Source: a virus
Virus record (IMG/VR): IMGVR_UViG_3300035670_001362
Span: 1 to 21,818 of that record
Strand: one strand, 5' to 3'
DNA: 21,818 nt
In this document: one piece after another, positions 1,982-6,326 of the stretch
Numbering within the stretch: position 1 is the stretch's first letter
How the letters are laid out: each line of letters opens with the position of its first letter
Program-made: the position numbers and the translations under genes
The notes under the pieces: model-generated
The model's input: the letters and a program-made list of their open reading frames with translations, nothing else
Databases searched by the model: none
Told to the model about the DNA's origin: nothing

Positions 1982-2557
1982 TTATTTTTTTAGAGATTTT
2001 AAAAATTTAATTGTTTCTTCTTTATTTTCAAGCATTTTTTGCTTAGCAGAACCAACCCAAGTTTCAATATCTCCGGCTTCAGTAATATAAGATTCATTAG
2101 AGGCATTTAGTTCTTCTTCAAACCATGTTTCAAATTCTTTAATTAAATTATCAACATTATCTCCAATAAATACATCATTGTATTGTTCCCATAAACCTTC
2201 TAATTTAAGTTCAGTTTCAAAATTTACTTGGCAATCCAAACATCTTTTAAACTGGATAAAGAAGCGTTTATCTAGGTGTTTTTTCATTAGTGTGTTACAA
2301 GATGGGCAAAATAAAGGAATAGTAACTGCCTTTTTAGCTTCATCTAATTTAGTAATATTTTGTTTTACTCCATCTTTTATTGTCCATAAACGCCCGTCTT
2401 GAGCTTCCCATACATCTCCTTCATTATGGAATTCTTCTTGTTTAGTATAACCAATACCTGATAAGGTACGGTCTCCATATTTGCCTGTTACTAGGTTACG
2501 AAGACGTTGAACATCTTTTTCTTTAAACTGTTTATTTAAAACTGATTCTTTACTCAT
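1982..2557 (-). CDS. Zinc-ribbon protein, phage hypothetical
   Basis: A 191-residue protein. The N-terminal third (KDVQRLRNLVTGKYGDRT, then EEFHNEGDVWEAQDGRLWTI) is followed by a four-cysteine zinc ribbon: CPSC near residues 84-87 and CLDC near 106-109. The C-terminal half is acidic and helical (LEGLWEQYNDVF, ETWFEEELNAS, ESYITEAGDIETWVG). From memory, proteins of this layout occur in other T4-like phages of aquatic bacteria without an assigned function; I could not check this. The start overlaps the stop of the upstream polyprotein gene by four bases (ATGA), so the two are probably translated together. The ribbon suggests nucleic-acid or protein binding. No enzymatic motif was seen. Confidence 0.65.
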   Translation of the reverse strand: MSKESVLNKQFKEKDVQRLRNLVTGKYGDRTLSGIGYTKQEEFHNEGDVWEAQDGRLWTIKDGVKQNITKLDEAKKAVTIPLFCPSCNTLMKKHLDKRFFIQFKRCLDCQVNFETELKLEGLWEQYNDVFIGDNVDNLIKEFETWFEEELNASNESYITEAGDIETWVGSAKQKMLENKEETIKFLKSLKK

Positions 2558-5148
2558 AAACCTAATTCATTTAATTCTTTTATCGTTTGTTCTGTGGATA
2601 TAAATAATATACCTATACCTCCTTTTGAACGCCATTGTTCAATGTTTGATGGTCTATCATCAATCAAAATACTTTTATTATTAGCATAATTTTGTTTGTT
2701 TTCAGCATTAGCTAAAATTAATTTTGTTCCAGGGATATTATTTTTAACCCAAAGACGTTTTCCTAAACGTGATTCATTCTGGCGCGAAGGGGCTGAAAGT
2801 AGGGTTGGGTTGTATTGTTTGATATAATCCCAAAGTTTTTTTCCATTTGGCATCCAAGGCATTCCTACCCAAAAACCAACACCATTTTCATTATCTATTA
2901 GATTCCAAAATGCTTCTTTGCCATTTTTTTCTTCATACTCACGTGGTGGAATACCACCTGATGCTTTTTCAAATTGCTTATCAAAGTCTGTAAGTACACC
3001 ATCCATATCACAATAGATAGTATATTTTTGTTCTGTTTCTTCTTCTTTCATAACCTTTTTCAGTTTATATTTTACCTCAAATAATGGTAAAGATAATGCC
3101 TTTACTCTGCCCCTCCAACGAGTTTTAATCTCTTCTTTTTCTTCAGGTTCTAAACCTACTTTATCAAGGTAATCATCAATAACATCACCAAATGGCGTTC
3201 TTGATTTTTTAGCTTTAAAATACATGCCCTGAAGCATAGCGTCTACTTCTTTATCTAACATAAAGTAGTTTTTAGGAGCAAGTATTTTATATTTTTGAAT
3301 CATATCACGAATGGCAGAATCATCAGCCATTTCTTTATCATCACGAACATTCCAACCACCTTGAGTTAAATGCTCTAACTCGTGGCGTAAAACATCACGA
3401 ATATCCATAGCAATAGTAGACCACATTTGAGGTAATTCTCTAGGATCTACCTGGAAGTTAAGGGCAACAAATCCTTCTGTGTCATCATCACCTTCATTTG
3501 CTCCACCATCAACTTTGTATTGTCTATCTTTAGTTTTCTTGAAATCAATTTTAGCTAAAAGATCAAATTCCATTGGGCGACCTTTAGCATCTTCCATTTC
3601 GTAGTTTGTATCAAGCACAGCAAATGGGTAAGTTGGCTTTTTGTCGTGTTGTGATTTCCACGCGTTTATAACGTCTTTAGATAGTTTAGAAACGATGGAA
3701 TCATATACACCTTCATTTAGTATATCTTCTAATAAACCAAATGGATCTTTATTTTTCTTTTCTTGTAAGCTATCAGTCCAATTTCTAAAAGTCATTGTGC
3801 CTTTTAAATTGGCTTCTTTTTCTAGATCATTTATATGATCGTCTTCTTGAGTATTTGTAGTTGTAATATCACCTAAACGATCCTCCATGTTTTGCATATG
3901 ATGAATCATTTCGTGAGCATACGAACGAGCAATATCTTTTGGATGACGTCCTTCAGTATAAAGAACAATCATTTTTTCATTTGGATCGTAATATGCCGTT
4001 TTACCAAAGAAATCTTTAGCGTTTTCTATATCACCATCAACTAATTTTAACCCAGGTAAAGGTTCAATTTTGTAACCTTTATCAATCATATGTTGAGTTA
4101 ATTTAGCTAGTAGAGGTAATAGATCAATATGATTAGAGTAAGTAGCATTTTCATTTAATTGTTTAGGAGTATTATTATGCCCACATTTATGACAAATATA
4201 CAAATCATCTCCACCATCTGCTATTTTCCATTCCCAACCACAATTATCACAAATAATATCTGTATCTGTTACTAATTCAGTCATCATCGATGAAGGTGTA
4301 ACTAAATATTCTGCTTTAAATAATTTAATTAAGGCAGCAGCAATAAATCCACCTGGGAGGGTGGCAATTGCTGTTAAACCTATTAATTTTAAAACATCTT
4401 TTAATTGATTACCTATTTCTTTTTTCTGGGTTTCTGTTAAATCAATATCACCTTTAGCTGATTTAATCAGTAAAGATACCGCTTCTTTGGTTTCTTTACT
4501 TTCTTGTTTAATAGCAGATATAAATTTAGTAAATTTTGATTTTAAATCTTGTATAAAACCTTCATTTAATTGTTTTTCAGTTACAATATCTTGAATATAA
4601 CTAAAAACTTCCATTCGTTCATTATCACTTAAATTTGATGGAAGATATTTATAAAAATCCTCAGGGGATATTTTAGCAGCTTTACGAGCATTAGTTCCAC
4701 TCATGCCATCTCCTGGGGTTGATATTAATTTAATTTTTGCATTAGGGTATTTATCTTCTACTCCTGAGGTTCTTAGGGCTACATCTTTTAAATCATCTTC
4801 ATTTCCTTGACGAGCACCTATAACAAAATATACAACTTCTTCGGGATTATTTTTAGCATAGCGTAAAATATCACCAATGGGTGCTTTTGAGGGTTGGATT
4901 TCTACTTTATCCCCTAAATATTTTTTATAAATTTCCCAAATCAATAAGGATTCTTCTTGAGTAATCCCATTACGCTCCCCAGATCCCACATAAATAATAA
5001 ATTTATCTATTTCGGGAAATTCAGCTAGCGCTTTTTGAACTACTTCAAAATGACCTTTTGTTGGTGGTTTAAATCCTCCGCCATATACAGCAGTAACAAC
5101 ATTATCACCAACCAACTCTGAGATTAGAGATTTGGTTAAGTTATTCAT
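2554..5148 (-). CDS. Multi-enzyme polyprotein: NTase, LETM1-like, zinc ribbon, two HExxH, HAD
   Basis: An 864-residue protein with at least six segments. Residues 17-190 form a cytidylyltransferase-like domain (GGGFKPPTKGH 23-33 and SGTNARKA 150-157, the ISSTxxR-like site); the first His of HxGH is Thr30. Residues 198-290 resemble LETM1, with a hydrophobic stretch LIGLTAIATLPGGFIAAALI. Residues 300-322 form a zinc ribbon (C300, C303, C319, C322). Residues 334-476 hold the metallopeptidase motif HEMIH (412-416) with E443/E445 as possible third ligand. Residues 480-688 hold a second motif, HELEH (589-593), with ExDA at 634-637. Residues 708-864 are a HAD/5'-nucleotidase-like domain (DMDGVLTD 714-721, LLSAPS, LIDDRPSN). 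LNE at 194-196, 331-333 and 477-479, and LFE at 689-691, fall at or near segment boundaries. This suggests prohead-protease processing into separate packaged enzymes, which is inference. It starts directly after the upstream stop. Confidence 0.75.
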   Translation of the reverse strand: MNNLTKSLISELVGDNVVTAVYGGGFKPPTKGHFEVVQKALAEFPEIDKFIIYVGSGERNGITQEESLLIWEIYKKYLGDKVEIQPSKAPIGDILRYAKNNPEEVVYFVIGARQGNEDDLKDVALRTSGVEDKYPNAKIKLISTPGDGMSGTNARKAAKISPEDFYKYLPSNLSDNERMEVFSYIQDIVTEKQLNEGFIQDLKSKFTKFISAIKQESKETKEAVSLLIKSAKGDIDLTETQKKEIGNQLKDVLKLIGLTAIATLPGGFIAAALIKLFKAEYLVTPSSMMTELVTDTDIICDNCGWEWKIADGGDDLYICHKCGHNNTPKQLNENATYSNHIDLLPLLAKLTQHMIDKGYKIEPLPGLKLVDGDIENAKDFFGKTAYYDPNEKMIVLYTEGRHPKDIARSYAHEMIHHMQNMEDRLGDITTTNTQEDDHINDLEKEANLKGTMTFRNWTDSLQEKKNKDPFGLLEDILNEGVYDSIVSKLSKDVINAWKSQHDKKPTYPFAVLDTNYEMEDAKGRPMEFDLLAKIDFKKTKDRQYKVDGGANEGDDDTEGFVALNFQVDPRELPQMWSTIAMDIRDVLRHELEHLTQGGWNVRDDKEMADDSAIRDMIQKYKILAPKNYFMLDKEVDAMLQGMYFKAKKSRTPFGDVIDDYLDKVGLEPEEKEEIKTRWRGRVKALSLPLFEVKYKLKKVMKEEETEQKYTIYCDMDGVLTDFDKQFEKASGGIPPREYEEKNGKEAFWNLIDNENGVGFWVGMPWMPNGKKLWDYIKQYNPTLLSAPSRQNESRLGKRLWVKNNIPGTKLILANAENKQNYANNKSILIDDRPSNIEQWRSKGGIGILFISTEQTIKELNELGL
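4150..4164. repeat. Linker repeat, copy 1 (encodes KQLNE)
   Basis: The 15-base sequence TTCATTTAATTGTTT recurs exactly at 4561-4575. On the minus strand both copies encode KQLNE (residues 329-333 and 192-196 of the polyprotein), at the end of the zinc ribbon and of the nucleotidyltransferase domain. A related shorter copy encoding LNEG lies near 3711-3720. Confidence 0.75.
4561..4575. repeat. Linker repeat, copy 2 (encodes KQLNE)
   Basis: Exact second copy of TTCATTTAATTGTTT (the other is at 4150-4164). It encodes the junction between the nucleotidyltransferase-like domain and the LETM1-like segment. A linker shared at the DNA level would fit modules being added or swapped through common junction sequences. 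Confidence 0.75.
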
Positions 5149-5526
5149 TTATTGTTTTAGCTTTTGGATTTTTTCTTTAGCTATTGCTTTCTTTTCTTCA
5201 ATATCTTTTTTAGCACCACGGAAAGCTTCCATAGCATCTTCCATTTCCTTAAGAGTATCTTGAAATGCTTTCAAAGCTTCAGTTCCTGCTCTACGAGCAT
5301 CTGATTTTTGTTTGTAAACACCTAAAATGTTTTTAATATCTAATCCACCTTTAATTTGAAGTGCAAATTCAGGAAGATCTAATTCATAAACCACATCATC
5401 CATTTCTGAATCTTTAGTTGGTTTTTCAACGATAAAGAATTTACCAATTTCGTCCGTAGGGATACCTACTGCTTCTTTTACTACTTCGGCTTTTTCAACC
5501 TCGTTTAATAGATCTAATAATTTCAT
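5149..5526 (-). CDS. Coiled-coil protein with packaging-like leader, unknown
   Basis: A 125-residue protein beginning MKLLDLLNEVEKAEVVKEAV, an amphipathic leader with LNE at residues 7-9. A central part (about 27-72) contains predicted strands and an acidic motif (DSEMDDVVYELDLPEF). The C-terminal half (about 73-125) is a long charged helix, probably a coiled coil (TLKEMEDAMEAFRGAKKDIE and then K/E heptads to the end). The ATG overlaps the stop of the kinase gene by four bases, and the stop directly abuts the polyprotein start. Location and leader suggest an internal head or core protein; a scaffold-like role is also possible from the coiled coil. No family was recognised. Confidence 0.65.
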   Translation of the reverse strand: MKLLDLLNEVEKAEVVKEAVGIPTDEIGKFFIVEKPTKDSEMDDVVYELDLPEFALQIKGGLDIKNILGVYKQKSDARRAGTEALKAFQDTLKEMEDAMEAFRGAKKDIEEKKAIAKEKIQKLKQ

Positions 5527-6326
5527 GATTGTAAAAATTTATTTAGTTTTGATTGTGCTTCCTCTGTGGAAACTATATGTTGGATGTGTTTTTCTACTTG
5601 TTCCTTAGACATTAAATCTTTAATATCTTTTTCAATTTTTTCTTTTTGCTTATCAGCACTTGCTTGTTGTGCTGGGGTTTTTGGTTTTGTGTCTTTTGGA
5701 GTGTATGGTTCTATATACTTTTTAAGAATATCTTCTAAAGAATCAGCATCTACTAAATTTTTATCGGTAGTAGTAGCGACAAAATTTTCACCAAATAAAT
5801 TAAGGTAAGGAATAAAGTTTTTAGTAACTCCAGCCCACGTTTGCATTACAATAAAAGGCATTAAACTTCTATCTTCACCTCCAGAACGCTCAAACCTATC
5901 TTCATTTTTACGGAGTGATTTTTCTAATGAAGAATACACATAAACCATAAATACTTCATAACCAGCATTTTCAAGAGTTTCTTTTAATTGCTCTGTTTTT
6001 TTATACGAAGCTGCAGTACCATCAATTACGATATTACCTCGTTTTTCAATTTCTTGTTCCAATTCAGAAGCATATGTTTTTTGAGCAGCTTGCATTGCTA
6101 TTGCTGCTTTGCTTCTTTCTTCAGGTCCACCTTTTTTCAGGTCTAGAGAAACATTTGCGTCTTTTAAATTTTTGATAAAATGATCATCTATATTAAGAAC
6201 CTTAAGACCCATTCCTGAAATAATGTTGCCGACTATTGATGATTTACCGGCACCAGGAGCACCAGCCAGTATAACAGCTTTAGGGGTATTTGTTGCCTCT
6301 TTAAGAAGTCGCATCAATGAAATCAT
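5523..6326 (-). CDS. P-loop kinase, zeta-toxin/AAA_33-like, with packaging-like leader
   Basis: A 267-residue protein. The leader MISLMRLLKEATNT has LKE at residues 8-10. A core P-loop kinase follows: Walker A GAPGAGKSS at 22-30, an acidic motif LNIDDHF at 45-51 in the position where zeta-type kinases hold the catalytic Asp, a second strand NIVIDGTAAS at 98-107, the strand VFMVYVYSS at 125-133, and an Arg-containing lid region about 136-153 (SLRKNEDRFERSGGEDR). The C-terminal tail after about 210 is Lys/Gln/Glu-rich and helical. Zeta-type and AAA_33 enzymes phosphorylate small molecules or nucleic-acid ends; the substrate here cannot be read from sequence. There is no antitoxin-like partner upstream, so a toxin-antitoxin role is unlikely. 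The start lies after a 31-base gap carrying a TATTTATA element. Confidence 0.75.
   Translation of the reverse strand: MISLMRLLKEATNTPKAVILAGAPGAGKSSIVGNIISGMGLKVLNIDDHFIKNLKDANVSLDLKKGGPEERSKAAIAMQAAQKTYASELEQEIEKRGNIVIDGTAASYKKTEQLKETLENAGYEVFMVYVYSSLEKSLRKNEDRFERSGGEDRSLMPFIVMQTWAGVTKNFIPYLNLFGENFVATTTDKNLVDADSLEDILKKYIEPYTPKDTKPKTPAQQASADKQKEKIEKDIKDLMSKEQVEKHIQHIVSTEEAQSKLNKFLQS

Follow-up and report, generated by a model that had tools for sequence, protein, structure and literature searches.

The viral fragment IMGVR_UViG_3300035670_001362 of IMG/VR (positions 1 to 21,818; here called the window, the whole 21,818-base stretch, with nothing further of this genome beyond the record) carries on its minus strand, at 2554–5148, an open reading frame with an ATG start that encodes a protein of 864 residues. 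We read this protein, with good confidence, as a cassette polyprotein of head cargo of a T4-superfamily myovirus, predicted to be cut by the prohead protease. An earlier reading of the letters alone (the sequence-only reading) had proposed, without naming the strand, that a polyprotein at this position holds several enzymes that are separated in the prohead and injected with the DNA. The reading frame is real and the interpretation is partly supported; on present sequence evidence it remains the best one, with a join that it missed, a LETM1 label that is unconfirmed, and cutting, packaging, and injection as predictions.

In the proposed mechanism, a short N-terminal leader would bring the chain into the prohead core, as the capsid targeting sequence (CTS) does in T4. 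A gp21-type prohead protease would then cleave the chain directly behind the glutamate of the [L/I/V/M]xE motif, at the leader as well as at every join. The cuts would release about six small proteins: a nucleotidyltransferase, a helical or membrane segment, a zinc ribbon, two zinc metallopeptidase-like proteins, and a deoxyribonucleotidase-like HAD phosphatase. The released proteins would remain in the head and be delivered to the host together with the DNA. Since any module flanked by LxE would be released cleanly, the modules can come and go, change order, or become separate genes, in the manner of cassettes.

The chain is modular, and the motif stands at its joins (coordinates are on the minus strand; a slash follows the glutamate). 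The N-terminal leader, MNNLTKSLISE/ (residues 1–11, 5116–5148), ends in IxE and is CTS-like, with MNxLTKxLxxxxLxE leaders in relatives. Join 1 (LNE/G, residues 194–196, 4561–4569, with a second site VTE at 189–191) and join 2 (MTE/L, residues 289–291, 4276–4284) are placed by the sequence, the relatives, and the structure model; join 3 (LNE/N, residues 331–333, 4150–4158) by the relatives, the codons, and the model; and join 5 (LFE/V, residues 689–691, 3076–3084) by the relatives and the model. A further LNE (residues 477–479) ends the spacer 464–479. The sequence-only reading had listed the three LNE and the LFE as lying at or near segment boundaries. All four are located as it said and stand at boundaries, but it overlooked join 2 and a fourth LNE (residues 859–861), which sits inside the HAD domain. 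Its claim that three LNE[GN] motifs exceed what composition predicts is borne out: shuffles of the protein contain 0.048 on average, and none of 10,000 reached three. In total the protein has 16 [LIVMF]xE, and those at the leader and joins end at E11, E191, E196, E291, E333, E463, E474, E479, E691, and E702.

Module 1 (residues 12–196, 4561–5115) is assigned by profile and fold searches to the nucleotidyltransferases of PPAT/NMNAT fold (GGGFKPPTKGH ... SGTNARK); residues 16–191 match the PPAT/CoaD fold with a Z score of 18, and the signature motifs TxGH and SGTxxR are both present. Module 2 (residues 197–291, 4276–4560), delimited by relatives and the structure model, is a helical segment with a hydrophobic stretch. 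Sequence searches found no LETM1 match for it in Pfam at E up to 1 or among PDB sequences, so the label LETM1-like is unconfirmed; the other domain labels of the sequence-only reading stand, the nucleotidyltransferase by fold, the HAD phosphatase by profile, and the zinc ribbon (CxxC...CxxC) and two HExxH domains in the sequence. The zinc ribbon is module 3 (CDNCGWEW...CHKCGHNN, residues 292–333, 4150–4275; sequence and relatives). The first HExxH domain is module 4 (HEMIHHMQ, residues 334–463, 3760–4149), with H412, E413, and H416 and a later ExEA, as seen in the sequence. Between it and module 5 lies the spacer KKNKDPFGLLEDILNE/ (residues 464–479, 3712–3759), which has LxE at both ends and, from relatives and the model, recurs between modules of relatives. 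The second HExxH domain, module 5 (RHELEH, residues 480–691, 3076–3711; alignment and model), has H589, E590, H593, and E634 and ends in LSLPLFE/. The spacer that follows, VKYKLKKVMKE/ (residues 692–702, 3043–3075; relatives), is comparable to the leader MKKVMGNLADLLLE of the free HAD gene of Flavobacterium phage immuto, a cultured near-relative. Module 6 (residues 703–864, 2557–3042) is by profile searches a HAD phosphatase of 5'(3')-deoxyribonucleotidase type with DMDG: it matches phrog_2643 (E 2.4e-26), has the DxDG motif, and matches Pfam NT5C below the family cut-off.

The two HExxH modules have only sub-threshold matches in Pfam (Peptidase_M91, DUF6782). No close solved relative was found by sequence for modules 2 or 4, or by fold search for module 5. 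Module 5 alone is predicted with a predicted local distance difference test (pLDDT) score of 93; its best fold matches are weak (Z about 4) and mostly zinc peptidases. In its alignment R112, H113, E114, E116, and H117, together with E158 (module-5 numbering), are invariant; HExxH with a later glutamate on another helix marks the gluzincin metallopeptidases, to which module 5 may belong. Both HExxH modules may have their targets in the host. For the full-length chain, AlphaFold2 on a 57-sequence alignment gives a mean pLDDT of 80 and a predicted template modelling score of 0.38, with no fixed packing between the domains. pLDDT falls below 50 only at residues 191–194, 292–296, 328–336, 464–466, 472–479, and 692–706, i.e., at every join, and no domain runs through a join motif, in agreement with the boundaries that had been proposed.

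Relatives show cassette exchange of the modules. IMG/VR was scanned for related stretches; 80 of the 104 recovered were kept, and motifs were counted on 51 representatives (40,495 residues). The nucleotidyltransferase comes first and the HAD phosphatase last or as the next gene; the modules between vary in presence, order, and number. Across the roughly 80 relatives, modules are reordered, duplicated, inserted, or separated into their own genes. On a module-1 tree (a quick tree with some long branches), the HAD domain switches between fused and separate at least five times, the zinc ribbon and module 5 are gained or lost at least ten times each, and module 2 at least five times. One insertion is clean: L018 and L010 read ...QDVVTE/IVTDTEVICDNC, whereas the window protein reads ...QDIVTEKQLNE/, the helical module, MMTE/LVTDTDIICDNC. 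Another is seen between L221 and L170. Other cargo lies between such joins, namely an Fe/Mn superoxide dismutase and a cupredoxin (L013) and a CCA-tRNA nucleotidyltransferase (L035), and immuto encodes the HAD phosphatase as a separate gene. The chain has in common with polyvalent proteins that disparate domains are combined in one phage polypeptide and exchanged in mosaic fashion. Repeated movement of modules at these motifs in evolution makes the case stronger than it looks from one sequence.

The zinc ribbon was not found in cultured phages, and modules 4 and 5 were found among cultured phages only in immuto isolates. As a mobile module, the zinc ribbon C..CxWxW...DGGDDLYxCHKCGHDN is very frequent in IMG/VR, in at least 555 stretches, and most of its contexts (L144–L223) have an LxE on either side of it. 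The spacer KDPFGLNQYARELAQGLEExLNE recurs between modules in 26 distinct cases (e.g., L002, L004, L010, L014, L041, and residues 464–479 here) and, as an amphipathic helix plus LxE, resembles an internal leader.

The motif is conserved where the modules meet. Before module 5, [LMVI]xE/G stands at one fixed place in 30 of 30 representatives, followed by G[R/K]YD or GVYD, and its glutamate is as invariant as the HExxH residues. Directly upstream of the zinc ribbon, all 66 distinct contexts examined have [LIVMF]xE. At the start of the HAD domain the motif is present in 26 of 26 fused and 25 of 26 free genes (51 of 52 together). Among the 51 representatives, [LIV]NE occurs 135 times outside domain cores and five times inside, a 37-fold difference in density. 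Short linkers contain 64 [LIV]NE, compared with 6.2 ± 2.4 in shuffles of those linkers, and 199 [LIVMF]xE, compared with 98; the mirror motif EN[LIV] is not enriched (2 versus 6.5), and [LIVMF]xD and [LIVMF]xK are at chance. The shuffles, the mirror motif, and the contrast between cores and linkers rule out chance composition as the source of the motif. At P3, the first position of the motif, L, I, V, or M before module 5 is encoded by seven different codons while the glutamate is invariant, indicating that the motif is held at the protein level and not as a DNA repeat. The motif is encoded by 13, 11, and 8 distinct nonamers at three joins, the commonest being TTAAATGAA.

Genes that encode a single module carry the motif at the end of a leader. 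Where the zinc ribbon is first in its gene, the protein starts with MIKLKxILxE and continues as the fused form does after the join, as in MIKLKNILTE/SIVGNKIVCDNC. Of 26 free HAD genes, 25 have a leader with LxE; one reads MYKLTDLYKQIKE/AEVEP..YCDMDG, with leader and LxE at the join point of the fused form. The clearest case is the superoxide dismutase, whose free genes begin MKLMSILTE/AKEQEFKRLPL or MIKLLDLLTE/AKDTKFKLPKL and whose fused forms read NITE/NTQNQDVKFKRPKL and TLNE/QKEGVKFKRPKL; distant viral homologues (e.g., L275) begin without a leader. In single genes, the leader with its LxE thus corresponds to a join.

Genes for Fe/Mn superoxide dismutase occur in 55 viral contigs (L226–L280), many with a CTS-like LxE leader and some fused (L013, residues 480–697), and the viral enzyme with such leaders is a candidate head-packaged antioxidant enzyme. 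In L113, the genome record of L003, at least six neighbouring small genes at about 87.8–93.7 kb have the common N-terminus MDNFDLKKYLAE/GRLFE/EE followed by unrelated sequence; this leader family probably represents a capsid targeting sequence that serves many cargo genes.

The expected protease is encoded by related phages. Profile searches detect Peptidase_S77, the gp21-type family, in 16 of 17 related records; the one record without a match is a fragment of 49 kb. Cleavage of T4-type capsid proteins takes place at the border between the conserved N-terminus and a variable stretch, and gp23 of the related records has an invariant [IL]VxE at this border. Position P3 of the joins also takes V or M, and the capsid protein of related phages agrees in this. 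In immuto, 17 of 21 genes between the tail and head genes (81%) have LxE in their first 26 residues, compared with 43% in shuffles and 28–38% elsewhere. In the window, profile searches and the list of open reading frames show around the polyprotein gene a late gene block of T4-superfamily myovirus type, with baseplate and tail proteins on its right side and, in between, a PD-(D/E)XK exonuclease, a primase-like gene, a GIY-YIG protein, and a zeta-toxin-like kinase. The claim of separable proteins joined by prohead-protease sites is thus supported by the joins of shuffled modules, their disorder in the model, the gp21-type protease of the related records, the gp23 motif, the leaders of free genes, and the separate HAD gene of a near-relative, while cleavage, with gp21 as the cutter, stays a prediction.

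Several observations weigh against cleavage by the prohead protease at every join. Six [LIVMF]xE lie within folded domains (E43, E46, E72, E239, E858, and E861), and the motif alone is therefore not decisive. Three of 48 module 4 joins and two of seven module 2 joins have no motif nearby. The residue after the cut (P1') is commonly G or N here. The zinc-ribbon contexts come from the 80 best-scoring of at least 555 stretches, and the alignment query of that IMG/VR search included the motif, a mild bias toward it. The excess of N-terminal LxE is smaller in the nearest long relative (72% versus 55% shuffled). Finally, the 21.8 kb window contains no head genes, and a gp21-like protease, whose presence in the genome the sequence-only reading had made a test, is seen in the related records and not in the window itself.

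Four other explanations can be set against the prohead protease. The chain could be a polyvalent protein that its own HExxH modules cleave, either prior to packaging or once injected; two such modules are in the chain, and autoproteolysis by embedded peptidases has been proposed for polyvalent proteins (PMC5512222). However, L170, L184, L209, L218, and L221 are LxE-jointed polyproteins without modules 4 and 5 (L196 lacks them as well, yet has another HExxH-like motif), so self-cutting is not required and is unlikely as a general mechanism; autoproteolysis by modules 4 and 5 as the sole mechanism is ruled out by these chains. LxE also ends the leaders of peptidase-free single-module genes and is present in the major capsid protein. 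Overall, self-cutting is improbable. We regard it as quite improbable, too, that the protein is packaged or used whole, with the joins as flexible linkers and LxE as a leftover of leaders from fused tagged genes. If CTS-tagged genes had fused, LxE would be found at the joins with no need of further cutting, and the helical spacers between modules do look like old leaders. Yet the leader is often gone while LxE is kept (before module 5, E and G are invariant in 30 of 30), and relics would decay, whereas many architecture changes have accumulated with P3 and the terminal glutamate under selection at the protein level.

Cleavage in the producing cell by another host or phage protease, for a role such as late metabolism and not as head cargo, is very unlikely given the leaders, the late gene block beside tail and baseplate genes, and the motif in common with the capsid protein. 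The least probable account, which we hardly credit, takes LxE as a recombination tag, i.e., conserved DNA around LNE that serves homologous module exchange with no cleavage. Modules are indeed exchanged at these points, and one nonamer is commonest, but the number of distinct nonamers at each of the three joins, and a P3 of L, I, V, or M with different first bases, do not fit a tag; free genes, moreover, retain the motif at the leader end, where no partner exists. A DNA-level tag is ruled out by the varied codons.

Cutting of a head-cargo chain by the prohead protease has partial parallels in known systems. The T4 internal proteins (IPI–III, Alt) share the short LxE-ended N-terminal leader, the L/I-x-E protease, and cargo that enters with the DNA; L/I-x-E is the site behind which T4 gp21 cleaves, and for IPIII the first ten residues are enough for packaging (PMC9026906). 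In T4, however, each cargo has its own gene and one leader, whereas the window protein has six modules per chain, a site at every join, and cassette exchange. Polyvalent proteins, as described by Iyer et al. 2017 (PMC5512222), likewise combine several unrelated enzyme domains in one phage polypeptide, with strong mosaicism, late-gene context, and presumed injection; there they are likened to RNA-virus polyproteins, and their release is ascribed to embedded metallopeptidases. The joins studied here differ from that proposal in carrying a prohead-protease motif, also in chains without modules 4 and 5, and no link of polyvalent proteins to gp21 sites or CTS leaders turned up in the passages of that article that were consulted. 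DarA, DarB, and DdrB of phage P1 are head-packaged with N-terminal targeting, and the DarA N-terminus is trimmed by the prohead protease, which likewise cuts the capsid protein (PMC9024508, PMC12810830); the processing reported is terminal only, with no chain divided into several products at joins that bear a motif.

The nearest cultured homologue is gp088 of Flavobacterium phage vB_FspM_immuto_2-6A, which contains modules 1, 4, and 5 and is followed by the HAD gene gp087 with its own leader. It differs in having an extra N-terminal part, no zinc ribbon or helical module, and an unfused HAD phosphatase. The predicted joins of gp088 are an LxE before module 1, LPE/G, and MAE/GRYD, and the gp087 leader ends in LLE/ES. 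The Kyanoviridae (Pelagibacter phage HTVC008M, Methylophilales phage Melnitz) have a similar cluster of P-loop kinase, nucleotidyltransferase-like gene, and HAD phosphatase, with LxE in the first residues of the kinase and HAD proteins; there the HAD phosphatase has its own gene, and neither module 4 nor module 5 was found.

Two genes lie directly upstream of the polyprotein gene on the minus strand. One (5149–5526) encodes 125 residues beginning with a CTS-like leader, MKLLDLLNE/V, and the other (5523–6326) the zeta-toxin-like P-loop kinase (PF06414, E 5.8e-17) with the leader MISLMRLLKE/A; judged by their leaders, both likely specify further head cargo. The kinase in the same cluster of HTVC008M (L224) has a similar leader, MIPFILKE/G. 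At the edge of the window, a minus-strand gene with an open end (2–856, 285 residues) also looks like a string of small LxE-joined modules (FFSE/, LVKE/E, VNE/V, LKE/A, MNE/A) and possibly encodes a second cargo polyprotein. Elsewhere, DUF6267 (phrog_455) and other families of unknown function occur as modules or as neighbours with LxE leaders (L196, residues 780–1164; L064, 20455–21729), and they are candidates for further injected proteins.

In the open-access literature that we searched, no publication on LxE-jointed cargo polyproteins or on prohead-protease cutting of a head-cargo chain at each of its joins turned up, and no virion proteomics of immuto or its relatives; this absence is weak, because most subscription journals lie outside that literature. 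Beyond the window, we think it likely, with somewhat less confidence, that uncultivated phages of the T4 superfamily, as a large group with cultured relatives that infect Flavobacterium, use a general cassette polyprotein system, in which any LxE-jointed protein (superoxide dismutase, cupredoxin, CCA-tRNA nucleotidyltransferase, metallopeptidases, nucleotidases) is packed as part of one chain, freed by prohead-protease cleavage, and injected as infection begins. If so, the prohead protease would be a general release enzyme for injected cargo, beyond its role in maturation, and polyvalent proteins would gain a directly testable release mechanism. The system would also explain the presence of ordinary enzymes such as superoxide dismutase in phage heads, and with one short motif as a guide, sequence alone would suffice to list the cargo of many uncultivated phages.

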